This document shows positions 5,945-15,052 of a stretch of 64,000 nucleotides of DNA, piece by piece. The notes below the pieces were generated by a model that was not told the DNA's origin, ran no database searches, and saw only the letters and a program-made list of their open reading frames with translations. This DNA comes from Bernardetia sp. ABR2-2B (GTDB lineage: Bacteria > Bacteroidota > Bacteroidia > Cytophagales > Bernardetiaceae), in NCBI RefSeq assembly GCF_037126435.1, contig NZ_CP147020.1:2035293-2099292 (forward strand). The letters are read 5' to 3'. Both the position numbers and the translations under genes were made by a program. Numbering within the stretch: position 1 is the stretch's first letter; the number at the start of each line of letters is the position of its first letter.

Positions 5945-6448
5945 TTAAGGTAATTCTGCAATCGTAACACGATAAGGCATTTTTTGGCTTCTATCAATGA
6001 TGGTATAAACGAAATATTTATCGTTTGCATAATGGGTAATATAAATATTTCCTTTCTTTTCTTGTTTGGTTTGGTCTAAATTAAAATCTACAAATTGAGC
6101 TACAAAATCTTCATACGGCTGACGGTGCTGAAAATGAAGTTGTAATTGATTTGTTTTTAGTCCTTTTTGTGGAGAAAAAATACTTTGCATGATATACTGC
6201 ACATCGTGATAATAGATTTCGAACATCCACATATCTACTTGTGTAGTTCCGTGCTTTTCAGAGCTTACATAAATCCATTCTTTCTTACCAATCTCTTTAT
6301 CCACTCCATCTGGATTTTTGCGATTTTCGAAAAATGAGATAAACTCTTTTACTGTAAGCTGGTTTTTATCAGTTTGAGAAGGATTTTTATTCGTAAAAGA
6401 AAAGCTAAGAAAGCCAATCAAAAAGAGAATAGGAAATAGGAATTTCAT
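5945..6448 (-). CDS. Secreted protein of unknown function
   Basis: 167 residues with an N-terminal signal sequence (MKFLFPILFLIGFLSFSF, about 1-19). The mature part is mixed alpha/beta with no recognised motif; aromatic-rich segments such as DMWMFEIYYHDVQYIMQ suggest a small globular periplasmic domain. No lipobox is present. The neighbours do not indicate a role: an unknown anchored protein downstream, and a divergent two-component operon upstream across 267 bp. Confidence 0.65.
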   Translation of the reverse strand: MKFLFPILFLIGFLSFSFTNKNPSQTDKNQLTVKEFISFFENRKNPDGVDKEIGKKEWIYVSSEKHGTTQVDMWMFEIYYHDVQYIMQSIFSPQKGLKTNQLQLHFQHRQPYEDFVAQFVDFNLDQTKQEKKGNIYITHYANDKYFVYTIIDRSQKMPYRVTIAELP

Positions 6449-6462
6449 TGAATTTTATTTTA

Positions 6463-6492
6463 GGAAATGGATATTAGGAACTAGAGATTAGA
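6463..6492. repeat. Degenerate AGGAAATGGATATTAGG-type word repeat
   Basis: A short AT-rich run built from related words (GGAAATGG, ATTAGGAA, AGATTAG). It resembles the runs at 47217-47262, 47762-47794 and 61905-61945. It lies just upstream of the 5945-6448 gene. Confidence 0.45.
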
Positions 6493-6715
6493 AAACACAA
6501 TAGAGTAACCAAAAAATCGTGCTAAAATTACGAACTATTTTTTACTTCACAGAAAATAAGACTCCTCCTCATTATCTGTACAGAGTACAAACACAATTAT
6601 TAAAATAAATTTTTAATCAAACAACTTTTCCAAAACTAACTATATCTTCATACATTTACGTTCCCTTGTAATTAAGAGTTATCATTCCGTTTAAGTATAA
6701 AATAAGTTTACTGCT

Positions 6716-7462
6716 ATGGATAAAATAAAAACCTTTGTTGTAGAAGACGAGCCTATGGTCAGAGAAGAAATGATATGGCACGTTACTCATCATCCTTTAT
6801 TAGAGTTTTTGGGGAGTAGTGGAACAGTCAAAGAGGCTACTAAACAAATAGCAAAGCTACAACCAGATTTAGTTTTATTTGACATTCAGCTTTCAGATGG
6901 AACATCTTTTGAGATTTTGAATCAACTTCCACAACTTGACTTCAAGTTTATATTTATAACTGCTTTTGAGCAGCATACCATAAAAGCCATTCGATATGGA
7001 GCTTTTGATTATCTTTTGAAGCCTGTTAATGATGAAGAATTTGCATCAGCCGTAGAGCGACTGAAGGAAAAGACATTGATAGACTCTAATGAAAGATTGG
7101 CTCTTACAAACCGAGTTTATCAAAAAAAGAAACTTACTTTAGAAGATATGATTTCTATCTCTTCCGTTGATTTTATCCAAATGGTAGGGTTGAAAGATAT
7201 TATTTTCTGTGAAAGTGATTCGTCTTATACCAAAATTCATTTACAGAATAACACAATGATTATAGCCTCCAAGACACTCAAGTTTTATGAAGAAGTTTTG
7301 CCTTCAGAGTATTTTTTGCGTTGTCATCAATCTTTTTTAGTCAATAAATTTCATATTGATAAATATTTAAAGACAGGTTATATTCTATTGAAAAATGGAA
7401 AGAATATTTCTGTTTCGGTTAGAAGAAAAGAATACGTACTAAATAGCTTGAGTGGATTATGA
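6716..7462 (+). CDS. LytTR-family response regulator
   Basis: 248 residues. The receiver domain (about 1-120) has the acidic pair near residue 10 (VVEDEP), the phospho-acceptor Asp56 (LVLFDIQL), Thr82 (FIFITAF) and Lys102 (LLKPVND). The C-terminal LytTR DNA-binding domain (about 145-245) shows the usual FCESDSSYTKIHL and FLRCHQSFLVN motifs. It is the cognate regulator of the kinase that follows: the kinase ATG overlaps this stop codon (ATGA). LytTR regulators bind pairs of short direct repeats upstream of promoters. A TAnnTTTA box at 6651-6658 is a possible promoter. The repeated elements at 9.3, 10.0 and 11.9 kb are candidate target sites (inference). Confidence 0.93.
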   Translation: MDKIKTFVVEDEPMVREEMIWHVTHHPLLEFLGSSGTVKEATKQIAKLQPDLVLFDIQLSDGTSFEILNQLPQLDFKFIFITAFEQHTIKAIRYGAFDYLLKPVNDEEFASAVERLKEKTLIDSNERLALTNRVYQKKKLTLEDMISISSVDFIQMVGLKDIIFCESDSSYTKIHLQNNTMIIASKTLKFYEEVLPSEYFLRCHQSFLVNKFHIDKYLKTGYILLKNGKNISVSVRRKEYVLNSLSGL

Positions 7463-9366
7463 TAAAATATATTTTTACAGTCTTTTTGTATTTACTGACT
7501 ATTACTTTCCCAGTGGCTGCACAAACAGAGCCTACTAGAGATGAGCTATTGAAAGAAATAACAGCAACAGTCGTTAAGAGTGATTTTCAGAAAAGTGCAA
7601 CAGCGTTTTGGCAAGACAAACTAAAAGAAGAAAGATATGCTTCTGATGTAGTAGTGAGAGCAAAAATAAATTACATGATAGCACGAAGTTTTGCATCTCA
7701 AAATATGGATAGTGCAGAAGTTTATGTAACCAAAGCTCTGATGCTAGTTGAAAATATAGAAGGATACGAAAACGTAAAACTATCTATATATAACGGTTTG
7801 GGTAATATTGCTCAACTTAAAGGTAAAATATTTTTAGCCTCTTTTTACTATAATAAAACAATTTCAATACTAGATGTAAATCCTTTTGTAGATGTTCCTA
7901 ATGAGAGTAAGATACAATACTATTTACATAGTGGTCAGGCAAATATAAAAATAGGGCTTTATGAAAGTGCTTTCGAACTAAATAAGAAAGCTGAAAAATT
8001 TCTCTCTCCAGCTATTAAAGAAAACTATCTTTGGTTTAGAGTATATTCTCAGTTGTTTGCTAGTGGATACCAAAGAGGAGTAAATACGGATTCTTTAGAA
8101 ATTTATTTAGAGAAGGTAGAAAAATATTCAGATACAGAAGTTGCCAAACGCTTTTATTACGAACACAAAGCAAAGTTTTTTGAGCTGACAAAACAGCTAG
8201 ATTCTGCAAAAGTCTACTTTGAAAAAGTAGTAGAGTTTGAGAAAAATAAATATTTAGATGAGCCTAATAGTACTATTATAGGAAATATTTATATTGGCTA
8301 TTGTCACCTTTTAGAAAATAGTGTAGATAGAAAACAGCTAACAGAAGCAAAAAGTCTTATCAACCAATTACAGGATTTAGAAAAATATAATTATCATCTT
8401 CAAGTTACTGACAGTATTCCTTTTTGGAGTGCTATGGCAACCTATTATTATGAGACTAAAGATTTCGAAAAATACAAAAAAGCTAAAAATAAAGTAATTG
8501 ATTTGCAGACTATCACACAACGAAAATCAGAATTACAAGCAAAGGAAGAGATGCAGTCTATGTATCAACTTAAAGAAAATCAGAAGTCAATAACGATGCT
8601 AAGTAGAAGTGTGAAAGTAAAAGAGAATCAGCTTCAAACTACTCAATCAATGCTTATTATCGTTACTCTGCTAATAATAGTAATTCTCTCTAGTATGGCT
8701 GTTTTATATTACAGGCAGAAAAATCAAAAATTACAGCAAGAATATAGGCAAGTAGTATTAGAACAAAAACTTCTTCGTACGCAGATGGAACCTCATTTTA
8801 TTTTTAATACACTTTCCACTCTTCAAAGTATGATTCGTTTTCAAGATTCTAAAAAGGCAATAAATTACCTCAATTATTTTAGCAGGTTATTACGTAGCAA
8901 CTTAGAACTTAGCCGACAAGAAACTATTTCATTAGAAGACGAATTAGAAACCTTAGAAACCTATTTCAAATTACAACAAACTCGTTTTCAAGACAAATTT
9001 GAATATCATATCAATGTCAATGAAGAGGTAGAAACAGGTGCAATTTTTATTCCTCCTATGCTCATACAGCCTTTTGCAGAAAATAGCATTTTGCACGGTT
9101 TTAAAGGAGAAAGTAAAGAATGGAAAGTGCAAATTGTTATCAGAGAGCTTGTAGAAAAAAATCAATTAGAAATAGAAATTATAGATAATGGAATAGGAAT
9201 AGAAGAGATAAGAGAAACAAAGAAAAAATCATTTTCTGGAGCTATCACAAAAGAGAGATTACAAATTTTGTCTAAAAAACACAATACACCAACAGATTAT
9301 CAGATTGTTTCGGAAAAAGGAAAAGGCACAAAAGTTTTGATGAAACTTCCTATTATTGGCAAATAA
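7459..9366 (+). CDS. TPR sensor kinase, LytS/His_kinase (PF06580) type
   Basis: 635 residues. There is a signal-like N-terminus (about 1-21, ending VAAQ), a periplasmic TPR-rich sensor region (about 30-345), a short coiled coil, and one transmembrane helix (about 397-418). The cytoplasmic His_kinase domain carries the phospho-acceptor His446 (MEPHFIFNTL), the N box with Asn542 (QPFAENSILHG) and the G box IIDNGIGIEE (575 onward). The end is a GKGTKVLMKLP strand. The TPR sensor suggests a protein or peptide ligand. The last codons are part of a ~110-bp element that recurs twice downstream. Confidence 0.92.
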   Translation: MIKYIFTVFLYLLTITFPVAAQTEPTRDELLKEITATVVKSDFQKSATAFWQDKLKEERYASDVVVRAKINYMIARSFASQNMDSAEVYVTKALMLVENIEGYENVKLSIYNGLGNIAQLKGKIFLASFYYNKTISILDVNPFVDVPNESKIQYYLHSGQANIKIGLYESAFELNKKAEKFLSPAIKENYLWFRVYSQLFASGYQRGVNTDSLEIYLEKVEKYSDTEVAKRFYYEHKAKFFELTKQLDSAKVYFEKVVEFEKNKYLDEPNSTIIGNIYIGYCHLLENSVDRKQLTEAKSLINQLQDLEKYNYHLQVTDSIPFWSAMATYYYETKDFEKYKKAKNKVIDLQTITQRKSELQAKEEMQSMYQLKENQKSITMLSRSVKVKENQLQTTQSMLIIVTLLIIVILSSMAVLYYRQKNQKLQQEYRQVVLEQKLLRTQMEPHFIFNTLSTLQSMIRFQDSKKAINYLNYFSRLLRSNLELSRQETISLEDELETLETYFKLQQTRFQDKFEYHINVNEEVETGAIFIPPMLIQPFAENSILHGFKGESKEWKVQIVIRELVEKNQLEIEIIDNGIGIEEIRETKKKSFSGAITKERLQILSKKHNTPTDYQIVSEKGKGTKVLMKLPIIGK

Positions 9367-9427
9367 AACGAATACTTCATAGTTACTTACACTTTTGAAG
9401 AATATCTATACAGATACTAAAAGGAGA
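9314..9427 (+). repeat. TCS-linked upstream element, copy 1 (includes kinase 3' end)
   Basis: It starts inside the kinase's last codons (AAAAAGGAAAAGGCACAAAA) and runs past the stop through GAATACTTCATAGTTACTTA, TATCTATACAGATAC and AAAAGGAG. Copies 2 (10044-10162) and 3 (11862-11976) are nearly identical over about 85-100 bp. A -7-like box (TACCTTCG, 9451-9458) begins 25 bp after the AAAAGGAG. It precedes the lipoprotein gene at 9612. Confidence 0.85.
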
Positions 9428-9450
9428 TTTCAAGTACTAGCACACACCCT

Positions 9451-9458
9451 TACCTTCG
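9451..9458 (+). promoter_or_regulatory. Putative -7 box after repeat copy 1
   Basis: TACCTTCG is one base off the Bacteroidota TAnnTTTG consensus. It sits 25 bp past the end of the repeated element, as in the other two copies. The lipoprotein start is about 150 bp further on, so the leader would be long. Confidence 0.4.
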
Positions 9459-9611
9459 TAGTATTAATTATTAGTTCGAGTTATTGAGTATAAGTATGAA
9501 ACAATTAGGTTTACTCTTAATAAATGGAATAGAGATAATTACATCTTTTTCTCACTTTCGACTAATAATAAAATATTAATATGTTATTTTATCTTACAAA
9601 TCACAAAAATA

Positions 9612-9890
9612 ATGAAAGAATCTAAAAATATTTTCAAAATTATTTTAATTACTATATTAGTCTGTTCATTTGCTCTTACTTCATGTAAAGATAATGAAGT
9701 TGAAGTAGATTGTGATGCTTTGACAACTCAATCACAAGATGCTTGGGCAGAATATTATCAGGGTATCAAATCTGATGCTAACTGTAAAGCATATAAAAAA
9801 TCTTTACAAGCAAATATTGATGCACATTGTTGGACAAAAGAAGAAGAGGAAACAGCTAAAAATGTGGTTGAATCTCTCCCTTGCGACTAA
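9612..9890 (+). CDS. Small Cys-containing lipoprotein
   Basis: 92 residues with a lipoprotein signal peptide (MKESKNIFKIILITILVCSF, lipobox LTSC with the lipid-bearing Cys near residue 26). The mature part is about 67 residues and has further cysteines (VDCDAL, DANCKAY, AHCWTK and a final LPCD). These could form two disulphides in the periplasm. It is followed by a strong terminator, so it is a single-gene unit. It is the first gene after the LytTR/kinase pair and lies downstream of repeat copy 1. No family is recognised. Confidence 0.75.
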   Translation: MKESKNIFKIILITILVCSFALTSCKDNEVEVDCDALTTQSQDAWAEYYQGIKSDANCKAYKKSLQANIDAHCWTKEEEETAKNVVESLPCD

Positions 9891-9896
9891 TATGTT

Positions 9897-9942
9897 GACA
9901 CTATCCTATCAAGTGTGTAAGTTAATAGGATAGTGTCTTTTA
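9897..9942 (+). terminator. Rho-independent terminator after the small lipoprotein gene
   Basis: A perfect 13-bp stem (GACACTATCCTAT at 9897-9909, ATAGGATAGTGTC at 9925-9937) is followed by TTTT. It starts 7 bp after the stop codon. Confidence 0.85.
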
Positions 9943-9982
9943 AATACTTGTTGGTAAAAAATACTTATTCAAACTTGTATTA

Positions 9983-10129
9983 ATGCTATTCTTCAAAATA
10001 AAATTTCTTACCATTTTATTTATAAACACTCTTCTCAAAGCACAAAAAAGGAAAAGGCACAAAAGTTTCGATAAAACTCACTATTATTGGAAAATAAAAC
10101 GAATACTTTATAATTACTTACACTTTTGA
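9983..10129 (+). pseudogene. Orphan signal-peptide fragment fused to the repeat
   Basis: A 48-codon frame starts with a good signal peptide (MLFFKIKFLTILFINTLLKA, then Q) and enters repeat copy 2 immediately afterwards. There it reads the repeat in a frame with no coding sense. It looks like the 5' end of an exported protein whose body was replaced by the duplicated block. It may not be expressed. Confidence 0.35.
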
Positions 10130-10162
10130 ACAATATCTATACAGATACTAAAAGGAGCTTTT
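10044..10162 (+). repeat. TCS-linked upstream element, copy 2
   Basis: It matches copy 1 from AAAAAGGAAAAGGCACAAAA through a decayed kinase 3' end, then through AAAACGAATACTTTATAATT, TATCTATACAGATAC and AAAAGGAG. It lies 106 bp upstream of the leader-peptide gene at 10268. Weaker similarity to copy 1 continues beyond the AAAAGGAG up to the promoter-like box. Confidence 0.85.
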
Positions 10163-10181
10163 AAATAATAGTGTATCTGTT

Positions 10182-10189
10182 TACTTTTA
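10182..10189 (+). promoter_or_regulatory. Putative -7 box for the leader-peptide gene
   Basis: TACTTTTA is close to TAnnTTTG and lies 25 bp after the AAAAGGAG of repeat copy 2. The peptide ATG is 79 bp downstream. There is no good TTG box about 20 bp upstream, which would fit an activator-dependent promoter (inference). Confidence 0.45.
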
Positions 10190-10267
10190 TAATGTTGGCA
10201 ATCAGTTCAAGTCATTGAATAGCCAAATGTTTGTACTATTATTTCATTTTTCAAATCAAATTTACAT

Positions 10268-10447
10268 ATGAAAAAATTCAAAAAATTTCGTTTATCAACT
10301 AAAGAAGCTAGTGAAATTAAAGGTGGAGAGTTTTATGATACCATTAATGGTGAAGGTGGAGGTGGTCAACCCTCAAGGCAGTATTGTAGAAGTATAAATA
10401 AAGATCATTGTTACTCACCTCTGTCTCAGCGTTACTACTGTTGCTAA
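10268..10447 (+). CDS. Double-glycine leader peptide, Cys-rich (bacteriocin/pheromone-like precursor)
   Basis: 59 residues. The N-terminal leader is basic with LSTKEASEIKGG, matching the double-glycine leaders (LSxEEMxxIxGG) processed by C39-peptidase ABC exporters in Bacteroidota. The predicted cleavage is after Gly20. The 39-residue core has a Gly-rich run (GEGGGG) and four cysteines (Cys40, Cys48 and the last two residues, Cys58-Cys59), plus several Tyr. It has its own repeat-linked promoter region and a strong terminator. No modification enzyme, exporter or immunity gene is recognisable beside it. It could be a bacteriocin, a signalling pheromone for the adjacent kinase, or a natural-product precursor; the choice is open. 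Confidence 0.72.
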   Translation: MKKFKKFRLSTKEASEIKGGEFYDTINGEGGGGQPSRQYCRSINKDHCYSPLSQRYYCC

Positions 10448-10450
10448 TTC

Positions 10451-10513
10451 AATGTACGGTTCTATAACAAAAAACCAACCCCCTTCTTAAAGTAGGGGGT
10501 TTCGTTGTACATT
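10451..10513 (+). terminator. Nested hairpin terminator after the leader-peptide gene
   Basis: The inner stem AACCCCCT (10477-10484) pairs with AGGGGGTT (10494-10501). An outer stem AATGTAC (10451-10457) pairs with GTACATT (10507-10513). It begins 4 bp after the stop codon. Confidence 0.8.
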
Positions 10514-10565
10514 CAACTATATCAGTTTCAAATTTTAGTTATCAAAAAATATAAGTAACAAGGAC

Positions 10566-11733
10566 CTCAGTCCTCTGACAAAAGATTTTAAATTTAGATA
10601 AAAAAAAGCCATAATTGAGTTTCTCACAAAATTTTTCTCAATTATGGCGAAAGCAAAGTATGCTTCTAGTGGTAAAGTTACAAAATTAGTTAGTGTTTTA
10701 TCTTCTCATTTAAAAGGGTTTCATTTAGCCCGAGTTCAATTTATAGGTCTTTTTGTAATAGCTGTTATAAAGGTAGGTCTAGGAGGTTTAATTCAAATTG
10801 CAACTGCGTTTGAAAGGAATGTAGAATACAGTTCTTCTTTACGTCGTATAGAACGCTTTTTAAATTATTATGAGCTTGATTTTCAAGCAATTACTAATTT
10901 GATTATTTCCTTAGAAGGCATTGAACAATGGGAAAATATCGTACTGTGTTTGGATAGAACGAATTGGAAAGTTGGAAAAGAGCATATTAATATTTTGCTT
11001 CTCTCAGCAGCTCATAAAGGGGTATCTATTCCTCTTTGTTGGTCTGTACTTTCGAGGACAGGAAATTCAGCTACTCAACAACGAATTGATTTGATAGAAG
11101 ATTTCTTAAATCAATTTCCTAATTTATCTATTACTGCTCTTGTAGCAGATAGAGAGTTTATAGGTAAAAAATGGTTTTTCTATTTAGCTACAAAAAAATT
11201 TGATTTTGTAATGCGTATAAAATCTAACTTTAAAGCTACTAGAAAAGGGAAAACAAAGTCTATTGTAGCATGGTGTAGAGGGCTTTCGATTTCAGAAACC
11301 TATCAACTAGATGGAACATTTGTAGTCAATGAAGCAGAGGTATATTTATCTGTAAGTCGAACACAAAAAGGATATATTTATTTAGCATCACCTGTTTTAT
11401 TGGATAATATTTTTGAAATTTATAAACAACGTTGGGAAATCGAAACGTTGTTTAAAGCACTAAAATCACAAGGTTTTAACTTAGAAAATACAAAATTAAC
11501 AGAACCAAATAAAATAGCTAAATTAATTGCTTTGTGTTCCATTGCCTTTGTTTGGTGTTACAAAGTAGGAGAATGGAAACATAAAAAAACAAAAATAAGA
11601 GTCTGTTCAAATGGATATAATGAATACTCTTTTTTCAGATATGGATTAATAGAAATTAAAAAAATACTCAATAATCCAATGACTAGTGAAACTAAATTTG
11701 ATCAAAAAATTAAAGTTTTGTCAATGGAGTAAG
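10566..11733 (+). mobile_element. IS4-family insertion sequence with 9-bp target duplications
   Basis: A 1168-bp element. The left end starts CTCAGTCCTCTGACAAAA; the right end, read on the other strand, is CTTACTCCATTGACAAAA, matching at 13 of 18 positions. It is flanked by the direct repeat AACAAGGAC at 10557-10565 and 11734-11742, a target-site duplication of the length expected for this family. One intact transposase fills it, and the transposase stop codon lies inside the right end. The clean ends and intact duplication suggest a fairly recent insertion between the leader-peptide and lipoprotein units. Confidence 0.9.
10644..11732 (+). CDS. IS4-family DDE transposase
   Basis: 362 residues. 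The catalytic acids are Asp104 (LCLDRTNWK), Asp169 (LVADREFIG) and Glu267 within the IS4 signature Y-x2-R-x3-E-x6-K (Tyr260, Arg263, Glu267, Lys274; YKQRWEIETLFKALK). The N-terminal region (about 1-90) carries the helical DNA-binding part. Length and motifs look complete, so the enzyme is probably active. The first codons follow a short palindrome (CATAATTGAG at 10610-10619, CTCAATTATG at 10637-10646), which could limit translation. Confidence 0.95.
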   Translation: MAKAKYASSGKVTKLVSVLSSHLKGFHLARVQFIGLFVIAVIKVGLGGLIQIATAFERNVEYSSSLRRIERFLNYYELDFQAITNLIISLEGIEQWENIVLCLDRTNWKVGKEHINILLLSAAHKGVSIPLCWSVLSRTGNSATQQRIDLIEDFLNQFPNLSITALVADREFIGKKWFFYLATKKFDFVMRIKSNFKATRKGKTKSIVAWCRGLSISETYQLDGTFVVNEAEVYLSVSRTQKGYIYLASPVLLDNIFEIYKQRWEIETLFKALKSQGFNLENTKLTEPNKIAKLIALCSIAFVWCYKVGEWKHKKTKIRVCSNGYNEYSFFRYGLIEIKKILNNPMTSETKFDQKIKVLSME

Positions 11734-11861
11734 AACAAGGACATAAAAGTCTCATTTTTTTTATATAAAAAACCTGTTCTATTAAAACTAAAAATATAAT
11801 ATACTTGGTTAGTTATCTATTTAGTATTTACAAATATTCCTCAATCATATTTTTATCAAGA

Positions 11862-11976
11862 AAGGGAAGAAAAAAACACGAATGAAACTTCCTATTATTG
11901 GCAAATAAAACGAATACTTCATAGTTACTTACACTTTTGAACAATATCTATACAGATACTAAAAGGAGCTTTTAAG
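11862..11976 (+). repeat. TCS-linked upstream element, copy 3
   Basis: From 11881 it is almost identical to copy 1 (ATGAAACTTCCTATTATTGG, then TAAAACGAATACTTCATAGT) and shares AACAATATCTATACAGATAC plus AAAAGGAGCTTTTAA with copy 2. To the left, 11862-11880 reads as a diverged kinase C-terminus (KGKKKTRMKLPIIGK in one frame against KGKGTKVLMKLPIIGK in the kinase). The kinase tail was therefore part of the duplicated unit. Confidence 0.85.
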
Positions 11977-11992
11977 TAGGTTAGGCGACGAC

Positions 11993-12000
11993 TACATTTG
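11993..12000 (+). promoter_or_regulatory. Putative -7 box for the 12038 lipoprotein gene
   Basis: TACATTTG matches the Bacteroidota TAnnTTTG box exactly. It starts 25 bp after the AAAAGGAG of repeat copy 3 and 45 bp before the ATG. The region around -33 has TTTTAA rather than TTG. Confidence 0.55.
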
Positions 12001-12037
12001 TAGTATATTATTTTACAAACTAAACGCCTATTGCTTT

Positions 12038-12667
12038 ATGAGACCTTTAAGTTTATTGTTTTTATTGTTTTTTGCTCTCGCTTTCACTTCTTGCCAAACA
12101 TCTACAGATACGACAGAAACATCTGACCTTCCAAATGACATATTGGAAAATGATGATGCCTTCGAAAAGTTATTTGAATACATCAACTCCCACTACCCAG
12201 ACCTTGATAAAAACAAGATTGAATTAATGGAATTTCATTACTCAGCTAATGTTGGCTCTCAAGATGACTTCTCTAGTTCAATGAGCCTTACTTTTGTAAA
12301 GGGTGATGATAAAGATGCTATTGTAGAATATGATATTGACAATGACGGCAGTCTCAGTAATAGTGGTGTTGATATTACTGTTGGAGGACCTATTAACGGA
12401 AAAATATCAAATACTTACGAAACATATCAGCCTTACCTATTTTCTCCAAAAGTGATAAACTTGGAAGTAGTACGTAAAGCTATAAAGGAATCTACAGTAA
12501 AATTTAAAGAAGCTACGAACGTAAAGAAAGCATATTGCAGTAATTTTACTATTGAGAATAAAGGTAATGAAAAGCCTACTCTTCAGCTTCGTATAAAGCG
12601 ACGTAAATTCGCTGCTACTATGAGTAGATCCTACAAATGGACATTAGAGGGAGATTTTATCAAATAG
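12038..12667 (+). CDS. Lipoprotein of unknown function
   Basis: 209 residues with a lipoprotein signal (MRPLSLLFLLFFALAF, lipobox TSC) and a Thr/Ser-rich linker. The body is acidic in the middle (FVKGDDKDAIVEYDIDNDG) and basic at the C-terminus (LQLRIKRRKFAATMSRSYK). No family is recognised; the strand pattern suggests a small beta-rich periplasmic domain. It is the third gene preceded by the repeated element, so it probably shares regulation with the lipoprotein at 9612 and the leader peptide. It could protect the cell from the peptide or help sense it (inference only). Confidence 0.7.
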   Translation: MRPLSLLFLLFFALAFTSCQTSTDTTETSDLPNDILENDDAFEKLFEYINSHYPDLDKNKIELMEFHYSANVGSQDDFSSSMSLTFVKGDDKDAIVEYDIDNDGSLSNSGVDITVGGPINGKISNTYETYQPYLFSPKVINLEVVRKAIKESTVKFKEATNVKKAYCSNFTIENKGNEKPTLQLRIKRRKFAATMSRSYKWTLEGDFIK

Positions 12668-12736
12668 TCTCTCCGTTTTTTTACTCATACTAAATTTACC
12701 TAAGTAGTCATACAAAATTAACAATACATATAACTG

Positions 12737-12900
12737 ATTAGCAAGTGATTTATATGATTTTTAAGATGAAATACAAGATAAATATAAATACGAACAATAG
12801 TAGTTTTTTTTAATACTTATTTAATTTTCATTGTATTATCCTTTAATTATCATATTGATCATAAAACCGATAGCTCGGCGAAGCCAAATCACTCGCTAAT
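12737..12900. repeat. MITE-like inverted-repeat element, copy A
   Basis: The left end ATTAGCAAGTGATTTATATG pairs with a right end closing in AAATCACTCGCTAAT. The right arm holds an extra GC-rich piece (CGATAGCTCGGCGAAGCC) that is shared with copy C (57153-57302) and absent from copy B (44034-44141). It occupies most of the gap before the 12943 gene. Confidence 0.8.
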
Positions 12901-12942
12901 TATGTCTTACTACCTACACTAATTCTTAAAATCTTTATTTCA

Positions 12943-13386
12943 ATGAAAAAATTGATATTGCTTTCGCTGTTCTTTATTTCTGTTATCTCATATACTCAAG
13001 CAAAAGGGATTCCGATTCCAGTATGTTTTCCGTGTGAAGAAATAACAGTAGTAGAGGAACTACCCGACGAAGAAAACCTAAAACCAGAACAAGCAGGATA
13101 TTATTTAGACTTGGGCTATATCTATGAAGAATATGGAATCGTTTTTATTCCATTCTGGAATATAGAAGGAAAGTATGTTCTCTACAATAAAAATCATAGT
13201 ACCTATTATGAAATCACAGCCGAAGAGCTCCAAGAACTCCAAGAAAAATACGATTTAGATTTAGATGATAATCCTTTAGGGTTATGGGCAAAATTTGGAG
13301 GAAAGCTGATTTTGATGGGATTTATAGGGTTAGCCATCTTTGGTATGTTATCTAAATCAGATGAGGAGGAGGAAGAACAAAAATAG
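12943..13386 (+). CDS. Membrane protein of unknown function with acidic tail
   Basis: 147 residues. A signal peptide (about 1-20, ending TQA) leads to an exported domain with a CFPCEE motif and acidic patches. A transmembrane helix lies near the C-terminus (about 116-137, FGGKLILMGFIGLAIFGML), followed by a very acidic cytoplasmic tail (SDEEEEEQK). The CxxC-like pair could be redox-active or metal-binding, but no thioredoxin fold is evident. It is followed by two small membrane-protein genes on the same strand, probably one transcript. Confidence 0.65.
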   Translation: MKKLILLSLFFISVISYTQAKGIPIPVCFPCEEITVVEELPDEENLKPEQAGYYLDLGYIYEEYGIVFIPFWNIEGKYVLYNKNHSTYYEITAEELQELQEKYDLDLDDNPLGLWAKFGGKLILMGFIGLAIFGMLSKSDEEEEEQK

Positions 13387-13433
13387 ACAAACAATATACT
13401 TGAGAGTAATTTATAACATAAAACTCAAAATAT

Positions 13434-13655
13434 ATGCTACACAGACTTTTCTATCGTCTAAAATATTCTGCTTTATCTTCTCTATTTGCTGGAATACTAC
13501 TACTGTTTTTTCAAGAGATGCGAACTTATGGAATCTATGCAGTTGTGGGAGGAATACTTTTATACTTCTTATTTGGTTGGCTAGAGTATAAAACACAAAA
13601 AAAACATTCTTATCCAGCAGATGAGAATGGCAATGCAAAGCCAACATATCGTTAA
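13434..13655 (+). CDS. Small two-helix membrane protein
   Basis: 73 residues with two predicted transmembrane helices (about 13-27, SSLFAGILLLFF; and 33-48, IYAVVGGILLYFLFGW) and a short hydrophilic tail. No family is recognised. It lies 47 bp downstream of the 12943 gene and 40 bp upstream of the 13696 gene. Confidence 0.6.
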   Translation: MLHRLFYRLKYSALSSLFAGILLLFFQEMRTYGIYAVVGGILLYFLFGWLEYKTQKKHSYPADENGNAKPTYR

Positions 13656-13695
13656 TCATTATCATTTAATATATACTACTAAAAATTCAATAACT

Positions 13696-14436
13696 ATGTC
13701 TTTTATTTTTCCAATAATCATTCTCGGTTTAGTTTTGGGAGGTTACTTCTATTATATGAAAGTTTATTATCCTAAATTCAAAGAACAATATACAGCAGCT
13801 CACGACGAATTTGAAAGTGAGTGGACACAGGACAAAGAAAAAATTGTCAATGAATATTTCTCTAATCCAAATAAATTTGGTTTGATGTCAGAGATTACAA
13901 AAGGAGAAAATATTGTTGGGGTAATTTCTGCAAAACTGCCAGAATCTTTCAAATCTCAAGCTAAAGAAGCCATTGTAGGAGCAATTACGTTTACCAGTAA
14001 AGCCGATATGTCTCTGTATTATTTAGTCGCAACGGATAAAGGATTGCATTACACCGTTTTTGATGGCGAAAAATGTATTCTCAACGAAGTTTTTGATTAC
14101 GACAATATAGAACAGGAGACAATAAATGAAAATACATTTTCTTTTGTCTATAAAGGAGAAAAATTTCCTTTCAAAAAGGCTCTTCTACCAGCAGGTTACC
14201 CTCGTTTCAATGTACATGAAAGAAGTAAAACACCTACATCTAACGACCGTTCGGTTAATTATTTTGTGAGAGAATTTCTAGCTTATGAAACAACTAATAA
14301 TGCAGAATACAAACAATCTAATGATGCTATTCCAAAACTCAATTTAGATGCTATGAAAGTATCAAAAGAACAACTAAAAGATACAAAAGTAAGAGAATAT
14401 TTGAGCGAAGAATTTAGAAAAAAATTAGTTGCCTAA
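13696..14436 (+). CDS. Membrane-anchored protein of unknown function
   Basis: About 246 residues from the ATG at 13696; an upstream in-frame ATG at 13621 overlaps the preceding gene and gives a poor N-terminus. A single N-terminal transmembrane helix (about 2-20, FIFPIIILGLVLGGYFYYM) is followed by a cytoplasmic or periplasmic domain. Mid-domain segments such as YYLVATDKGLHYTVFDGEKC and NTFSFVYKGEKFPF resemble the PH-like domains that read out lipids or proteins, but this is speculative. A terminator follows. Confidence 0.65.
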   Translation: MSFIFPIIILGLVLGGYFYYMKVYYPKFKEQYTAAHDEFESEWTQDKEKIVNEYFSNPNKFGLMSEITKGENIVGVISAKLPESFKSQAKEAIVGAITFTSKADMSLYYLVATDKGLHYTVFDGEKCILNEVFDYDNIEQETINENTFSFVYKGEKFPFKKALLPAGYPRFNVHERSKTPTSNDRSVNYFVREFLAYETTNNAEYKQSNDAIPKLNLDAMKVSKEQLKDTKVREYLSEEFRKKLVA

Positions 14437-14472
14437 TTGTTTAGGTCTGTACAAACGTTTAAATAAAGGGGG

Positions 14473-14566
14473 AGAAGTTTGAAGTTGATGAGATTTTACA
14501 AAAAATCTGTGAACTTCAAACACTTCTAATATCACAAAAGCTGACGGATTATTTTGTCAGTTTTTG
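14473..14566 (+). terminator. Long hairpin followed by a terminator hairpin
   Basis: A first hairpin pairs AGAAGTTTGAAGTT (14473-14486) with AACTTCAAACACTTCT (14512-14527), with an inner AGATTTT/AAAATCT stem. The second, CTGAC (14541-14545) with GTCAG (14556-14560) flanked by AAAA and TTTTT, looks like the terminator of the 13696 gene. Confidence 0.65.
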
Positions 14567-14580
14567 TCTTCGAAAATATT

Positions 14581-14745
14581 TCACCTTTTCTTCTTCCTCT
14601 TTCCAACCTTGAAATCAAATTTACCTGGCGTTCTGAATATATTGATACTAATCATTGTTGCATCTTTGTTTGCTCTCTAAATTTATTGATTTTCTATATC
14701 TTTAAAATAATTAGCAGCTTTTGGGTTTTCCTTTCGAATTTTGTA
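14581..14745 (-). pseudogene. Decayed copy of the AsmA-like gene 3' end
   Basis: Read on the minus strand, this gives NKDATMISINIFRTPGKF, DFKVGK and KKKR then stop. The intact gene at 23190-26420 ends DKDATMISINIFGTPDEF, DFKLGK and KKRK. The match continues upstream into AANYFKDIENQ (intact: AAKDLEKVENE) but is broken by two in-frame stops. Only about 50 codons survive. The remnant is separated from its parent by the giant gene, so the parent's last part was duplicated, or the region rearranged, long enough ago for stops to accumulate. Confidence 0.85.
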
Positions 14746-14784
14746 GTGAAAATTTCAAAGAAAGAAACTGTTTAAGAATTACTC

Positions 14785-14870
14785 CTAGATAGGTCAGTCT
14801 CGTAGAGCAGACCGTTTTGCAGTTGATACTTGCAACCTTAGTAGGCGGTCTGTCCTTTGGAACTGACCTA
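14785..14870. repeat. Palindromic intergenic repeat (TAGGTCAG family), copy 2
   Basis: The left arm starting TAGGTCAGTCTCGTAGAGC pairs with a right arm ending GGAACTGACCTA; the loop differs from copy 1 at 2298-2380. An outer CTAGAT replaces the TACTAGACA border. The rest of the gap to 15052 shows no feature. Confidence 0.75.
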
Positions 14871-15052
14871 TTTGCTATAAAAAACTCATTTTGAAAACAT
14901 AGTTTTCTATTTTTAAACAACTTCAAACTATAGAAAAACTTACTACTTAGTTTTTAAATTATTGTCAAATTAATATTTATGTAGAAATAGATTCATCAAG
15001 ATTGAAATTTGGTGTTGCTTGAAAATGAATAAAGTTTGTGTCATTAGCCTCT

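Follow-up and report, generated by a model that had tools for sequence, protein, structure and literature searches.

A solitary double-glycine-leader, cysteine-rich peptide gene in Bernardetia, probably served by a distant exporter and VKOR fusion locus

The window considered here, a stretch of 64,000 nucleotides from Bernardetia sp. ABR2-2B (contig NZ_CP147020.1, positions 2,035,293 to 2,099,292; positions below are counted from its first letter), carries at 10268–10447 a real and intact gene of a genus-wide family. Its assignment as a double-glycine (GG)-leader, cysteine-rich peptide gene is supported, and this solitary gene probably encodes the precursor of a bacteroidetocin-like peptide, exported and disulfide-bonded, that is served in trans by a distant exporter and oxidase locus. 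The peptide is most likely bacteriocin-like rather than a new kind of system; the surrounding pathway, and above all its VKOR fusion, is of more interest than the peptide itself.

The gene, from its ATG at 10268 to the stop codon at 10445–10447, encodes 59 aa and has a single possible start, with no ATG, GTG or TTG between the upstream in-frame stop (10220) and position 10268 (Table 1). A generic GG-leader scan of the window returned this ORF as its sole match and nothing from the reversed window, while 60 Markov-simulated windows gave four such ORFs by chance, one of them with at least four cysteines; 39-aa stretches with at least four cysteines make up 0.12% of all such stretches in window ORFs of at least 150 aa. 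The ORF, the single start, the leader profile described below and this rarity by chance bear out the 59-codon gene with a double-glycine leader that an earlier note had proposed from the sequence, and translation confirms the 39-residue core with four cysteines, the last two terminal after a Gly-rich stretch. The strong terminator mentioned in that note corresponds to a terminator-like hairpin (RNA fold of 10462–10512, −14.3 kcal/mol, z −2.4). Its statement that the window holds no recognisable export or modification gene also stands: the window contains no C39 match, and beside the peptide no modification gene, thiol oxidoreductase gene or immunity gene was recognised.

Table 1. Features of the peptide locus and of the distant exporter and fusion locus
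Feature	Position	Strand	Basis or remark
LytTR response regulator paired with the kinase; neighbour	6716..7462	+	Pfam
Histidine kinase (PF06580; also TPR-like matches) from which the repeat derives; neighbour	7459..9366	+	Pfam
Repeat copy 1, at the authentic 3' end of the kinase gene and beyond	9314..9440	+	
92-aa lipoprotein-like ORF; neighbour	9612..9890	+	
Repeat copy 2, just upstream of the peptide gene	10045..10171	+	91% to copy 1
59-aa double-glycine-leader peptide gene	10268..10447	+	Translation and leave-one-out leader profile
Leader MKKFKKFRLSTKEASEIKGG, 20 aa, predicted cleavage after Gly20	10268..10327	+	Aligned to 17 other leaders of the family
Core, 39 aa, with four Cys after a Gly-rich stretch and a CC end	10328..10444	+	
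Terminator-like hairpin, then T-rich tail	10480..10499	+	Fold z-score −2.4
IS4-family insertion sequence, beyond the terminator	10566..11734	+	Transposase family; at least 16 copies, 98–100% identity, in the genome
Repeat copy 3, upstream of a 209-aa lipoprotein-like ORF	11856..11982	+	80% to copy 1
C39-peptidase ABC exporter, intact	G000:C1:2296971-2299187		DCG..C motif and all three domains
C39-like/VKOR/thioredoxin membrane fusion	L027:9074-10708 (G000:C1)		Relatives in L030, L068, L034, L071

The peptide matched no family in Pfam (E ≤ 1) or NCBIfam (E ≤ 10) and lay below the curated cut-offs of TIGR01847, TIGR04149 and NF047798; Rfam gave no match at gathering score over 6000–15000. No homologue of the core was found in the genomes of relatives or in a pattern scan of 84,980 species genomes with the peptide, which produced 592 stretches that fit a pattern, none of which was confirmed. 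Purifying selection on the window gene itself therefore cannot be demonstrated. The AlphaFold2 model of the peptide with 41 relatives was poor (pLDDT 58.9) and for this reason was left unused.

The leader, by contrast with the core, places the peptide in a family. When the whole peptide was used as a query, its own genome returned four weaker places, three of which carry leaders of the same type, and relatives returned more; in an alignment of 18 leaders (the window leader and 17 others) F4, F7, G19 and G20, in window numbering, are invariant. Since the window peptide had served to find this first set, a second profile was built from the other leaders; among 1,760 stop-to-stop ORFs of the window this leave-one-out profile recovered the peptide at E 4.9e-9, the next best match being 0.25. 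The full profile has 38 strong matches (E ≤ 4.1e-5) across all seven genomes of the genus set (7, 5, 7, 5, 2, 2 and 10 in G000, the own genome, to G006), counting also one leader that ends in GA and two peptides whose core is as short as 1 and 4 aa; four of the seven in the own genome lie near a C39-ABC exporter and three elsewhere. At the order level, the profile picks up 27 of 291 genomes at E ≤ 0.1 and 15 at E ≤ 0.001, seven of these 15 being the genus itself. The earlier note had made its proposal depend on conservation of the GG site and the cysteines among homologues, and GG is kept in 37 of the 38 genus leaders, with cores that bear cysteines at positions that cannot be aligned. The window peptide fits the Bernardetia FxKF double-glycine-leader group defined here, both by its leader and by its even number of cysteines.

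Core sequences in the 38 genus peptides vary widely while the leaders stay conserved, and cysteine accounts for 145 of their 1,456 core residues (10.0%), against 0.56% in window ORFs of at least 150 aa. The number of cysteines is even in 33 of the 36 genus cores with any cysteine and in 33 of the 34 with at least two, the three odd cores having 3, 1 and 1. Among distant cores, a set that includes four without cysteine, the corresponding figures are 13/15 and 13/13, so that 46 of 47 genus and distant cores with at least two cysteines are even. Among size-matched control ORFs taken from these loci, 385 of 986 have an even count (385 of 614 with at least two cysteines); at three or more cysteines, 23/24 genus cores are even vs 117/346 control ORFs. 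These statistics treat related sequences as if they were unrelated, and when each core cluster contributes a single row, the even ones number 31 of 37, two peptides parsed twice being still included. The nearly always even cysteine counts point to pairing of the core cysteines as disulfides.

A genome scan for C39-peptidase ABC exporters, also suggested in the earlier note, was positive: two C39 matches were found, the nearest about 250 kb from the window peptide, and one of them is an intact exporter. The second, 10 kb past it, belongs to a fusion in which a C39-like domain is joined to VKOR and thioredoxin. The interval between the two encodes GG peptides and proteins with thioredoxin domains (TlpA/ResA-like, TPR), and a HlyD-like protein follows after the fusion. 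Six of the seven genus genomes have the fusion close to GG peptides and next to a HlyD-like protein, and the exporter and fusion gene set is also present in G001, G002, G003, G005 and G006, in some of them split over two places. G004 has the fusion only as fragments detected by tblastn, and both of its GG peptides have poor cores.

The redox cysteines of the fusion, four in VKOR and two in thioredoxin, are invariant in all eight aligned sequences. The protease cysteine motif of the C39-like domain is lost in all five sequences that are complete from their own initiator Met, on which this statement rests, the other three being cut at tblastn match limits. At the other catalytic-triad positions, none of the eight has the His and one (L145) has the Asp. 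An AlphaFold2 model was good only in the C39-like domain (pLDDT mostly 74–90) and thioredoxin, the membrane part being weak (mean 65.4), and Foldseek searches with it returned PCAT1, the HlyB C39-like domain, the ComA peptidase and, weakly, the Synechococcus VKOR. According to this model, the N-terminal domain would share the fold of the HlyB C39-like domain (3zua; E 1e-4, TM 0.65 by target), which also lacks the protease cysteine; in HlyB, however, the domain is carried by an ABC transporter, whereas here it is joined to VKOR and thioredoxin.

The association of the fusion with GG-leader peptides extends beyond the genus. The fusion profile matched 41 of 395 genomes of the phylum in a scan that scored up to three candidates per genome, and 13 of 29 fusion loci have a GG-leader peptide with at least two core cysteines within about 1.5 kb (16 of 29 do not); in a control of 26 loci for this set the sole hit, obtained twice, was the window peptide. 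A further scan, of named genomes, gave 61 fusion loci, of which 37 have such a peptide within 6 kb, vs 2 of 61 in the reversed-sequence control, and the remaining 24 showed none. The fusion is also carried by a strain related to Flavobacterium johnsoniae UW101 (L206). Six of the 61 loci (L179, L180, L185, L186, L191 and L194), all of which score, come from genomes used to build the query, and the figure without them is 31 of 55; three (L209, L229 and L230) are labelled outside Bacteroidota and may be mis-binned. Among the 61-locus peptides with at least three cysteines, 49 of 52 have an even number and the other three have seven; some match the leader_Chryseo or TIGR04149 models, most of them weakly. 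A different peptide type is seen in L169, L171, L176 and L177, where tandem GG-leader ORFs with short, cysteine-free cores (DPSKGTGKG-like) lie near the VKOR fusion. A literature search, with subscription papers largely outside its reach, returned no paper on GG-leader peptides together with a C39-like/VKOR fusion, which is weak evidence of novelty.

By linkage labels set by eye, 15 of the 38 genus peptides lie away from exporter or fusion machinery. One solitary GG gene has the same neighbours in three species, the neighbours being 82–94% identical and the peptides 53–60%, with a pN/pS of 0.31–0.52 and synonymous change near saturation in two pairs. Since solitary members are kept in place across three species at such pN/pS values, the orphan state is ordinary in the family. 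Another pair (L136/L138, 94% identical) has a pN/pS of 1.48 on very few changes. Leaders of the FKKF type, to which that of the window peptide belongs, are orphans in nine of ten cases, vs 6 of 28 for the others (Fisher p 2.5e-4, computed on rows that are not independent and with linkage judged by eye), and these leaders may therefore be served less well, or by something else. Besides the window gene, a second solitary GG-leader peptide gene of the same genome (L133:6058-6222; G000:C1:2103057) lies 3.8 kb beyond the end of the window and occupies the same place in three species.

The earlier note had described a repeat-linked upstream region; a 127-nt repeat is indeed present there, one of three copies starting at 9314, 10045 and 11856 and the only three in the genome at E ≤ 0.001, but it is not a dedicated element, being a duplicated 3' end of the histidine-kinase gene (its last 16 codons and about 75 nt past its stop). 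Where the intact kinase gene ends in KGKGTKVLMKLPIIGK-stop, the remnant in copy 2 reads KGKGTKVSIKLTIIGK-stop. The corresponding flanks in G002 (77–89% identical on the regulator side; 12943–13386 vs a 144-aa ORF, 60%) enclose six tandem histidine kinases (L064:6091-17669), whose last 25 residues are identical and whose N-terminal parts differ, a pattern suggestive of gene conversion at the 3' ends. Most simply, kinase copies would be readily duplicated and lost at this locus, and the small genes would occupy the sites of former copies, in whichever order these events took place. The 92-aa ORF was considered as an immunity protein and dropped, its homologues, present in five of the seven genus genomes including the own, not being near mapped GG peptides (none of those outside the window lies within 50 kb of one).

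The window gene might instead be a remnant, silent or in decay, in a region undergoing rearrangement, with duplicated kinase ends and an active insertion sequence: it lies between kinase-end repeats and ends 119 nt before an element with at least 16 near-identical copies, and no orthologue was found. This is unlikely: the leader, GG, reading frame and terminator are intact, the insertion sequence lies beyond the terminator, and decay of the frame would not preserve four cysteines and the CC end.

GG-leader pheromones beside LytTR systems are textbook knowledge, and the position of the gene close downstream of a LytTR regulator and sensor kinase raises the question of whether the peptide is read by that two-component system, as ComC is by ComD/ComE. 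Such a role is very unlikely, for the orthologous regulator–kinase loci of G002 and G003 carry no GG peptide in the stretches examined (about 20 kb and 9 kb, the G003 contig ending inside the kinase), and among 37 mapped stretches the regulator and kinase occur only in the window and in L064, the latter chosen for its kinase. For one further orphan peptide (G006:C52:897) the nearest thing to this is a distant kinase match some 15 kb off, and a 39-aa core with two predicted disulfides would be large for such a signal.

A solitary, disulfide-bonded secreted peptide is the preferred reading, and among known systems that resemble it are the bacteroidetocins (class IIf). According to PMC6671954, these have a GG leader of 15–16 aa and a mature peptide of about 42–48 aa with cysteines (four in A and B), and their regions contain genes for a C39-ABC exporter and a multi-TM protein close by, with a thiol oxidoreductase in most; they kill Bacteroidales, and GG leader, four cysteines, C39 exporter and thiol oxidoreductase work together. 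The window peptide has in common with them an origin in Bacteroidota, a GG leader, a core of about 40 aa with four cysteines (at 39 aa slightly shorter than theirs) and the lack of a recognised immunity gene, and its genome likewise holds a C39-ABC exporter and a thiol oxidoreductase. It differs, in a comparison by description rather than sequence, in its leader of 20 aa, in its distance from exporter and oxidase, the exporter instead lying near other members with the same leader, in the VKOR–thioredoxin–C39-like fusion and HlyD-like adaptor of the exporter locus, and in family cores that vary freely. Because leader length and gene neighbourhood differ, the peptide is not filed as a bacteroidetocin.

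The 'bacteriocin-like protein' peptides of NF047798 (leader_Chryseo) likewise combine a GG leader with cores of even cysteine number, and they too occur close to a VKOR fusion of this kind; the window peptide does not match this model, and four of 41 family members do so weakly (best 0.018). Class II microcins and class IIa bacteriocins share the GG leader, a C39 exporter with a HlyD-type adaptor and an unmodified or disulfide-only peptide. The YGNGVXC motif that marks class IIa, according to PMC6671954, is absent from the window peptide, which also has none of the Pfam or NCBIfam matches sought. Least likely of the alternatives is an enzyme-modified precursor (a lanthipeptide or other RiPP): the genome has a LanC-like gene adjoining a 1,051-aa ORF and two small precursors with cysteine-bearing cores, and 11 of 41 family members, the window peptide not among them, weakly match the rSAM-modified RiPP model TIGR04149 (best 2e-5), but the LanC-adjacent precursors carry a different leader (MKTNKKLKLNTKKVVILSDEQQ..GG) unmatched by the family profile, no modification gene was recognised next to the window peptide, and even cysteine counts suit disulfides better than thioether rings. 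The two small precursors, the LanC-like gene and the 1,051-aa ORF (L247:9472-14534; G000:C1 at about 4.278 Mb) probably form a class I lanthipeptide cluster.

For the solitary disulfide-bonded peptide, the likely course is as follows. The 20-residue leader would be recognised by the single intact C39-ABC exporter of the genome, which would cut after Gly19-Gly20 and release the core of 39 residues into the periplasm. There, its four cysteines would form two disulfides, most likely through the VKOR–thioredoxin membrane fusion, and the mature peptide would leave through the HlyD-type adaptor and a presumed outer-membrane channel. The window gene would accordingly be a satellite of the exporter locus, and by analogy with bacteroidetocins its likeliest role is antagonism of related bacteria. 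Tentatively, and with low confidence, the fusion might represent a dedicated disulfide-peptide pathway of Bacteroidota, in which the protease-dead C39-like domain would hold GG leaders while VKOR–thioredoxin joins the cysteines of the emerging core, one machine serving many divergent peptides, including scattered solitary genes.

Solitary genes of this type escape cluster-based mining, which takes an exporter or modification enzyme as its point of departure. Three independent handles on a large and mostly unnamed set of Bacteroidota secreted peptides are now at hand in the leader profile, the rule of even cysteine numbers and the link to the VKOR fusion, and the C39-like/VKOR fusion offers a testable proposal for how disulfides may be inserted into leader-bearing peptides in this phylum.
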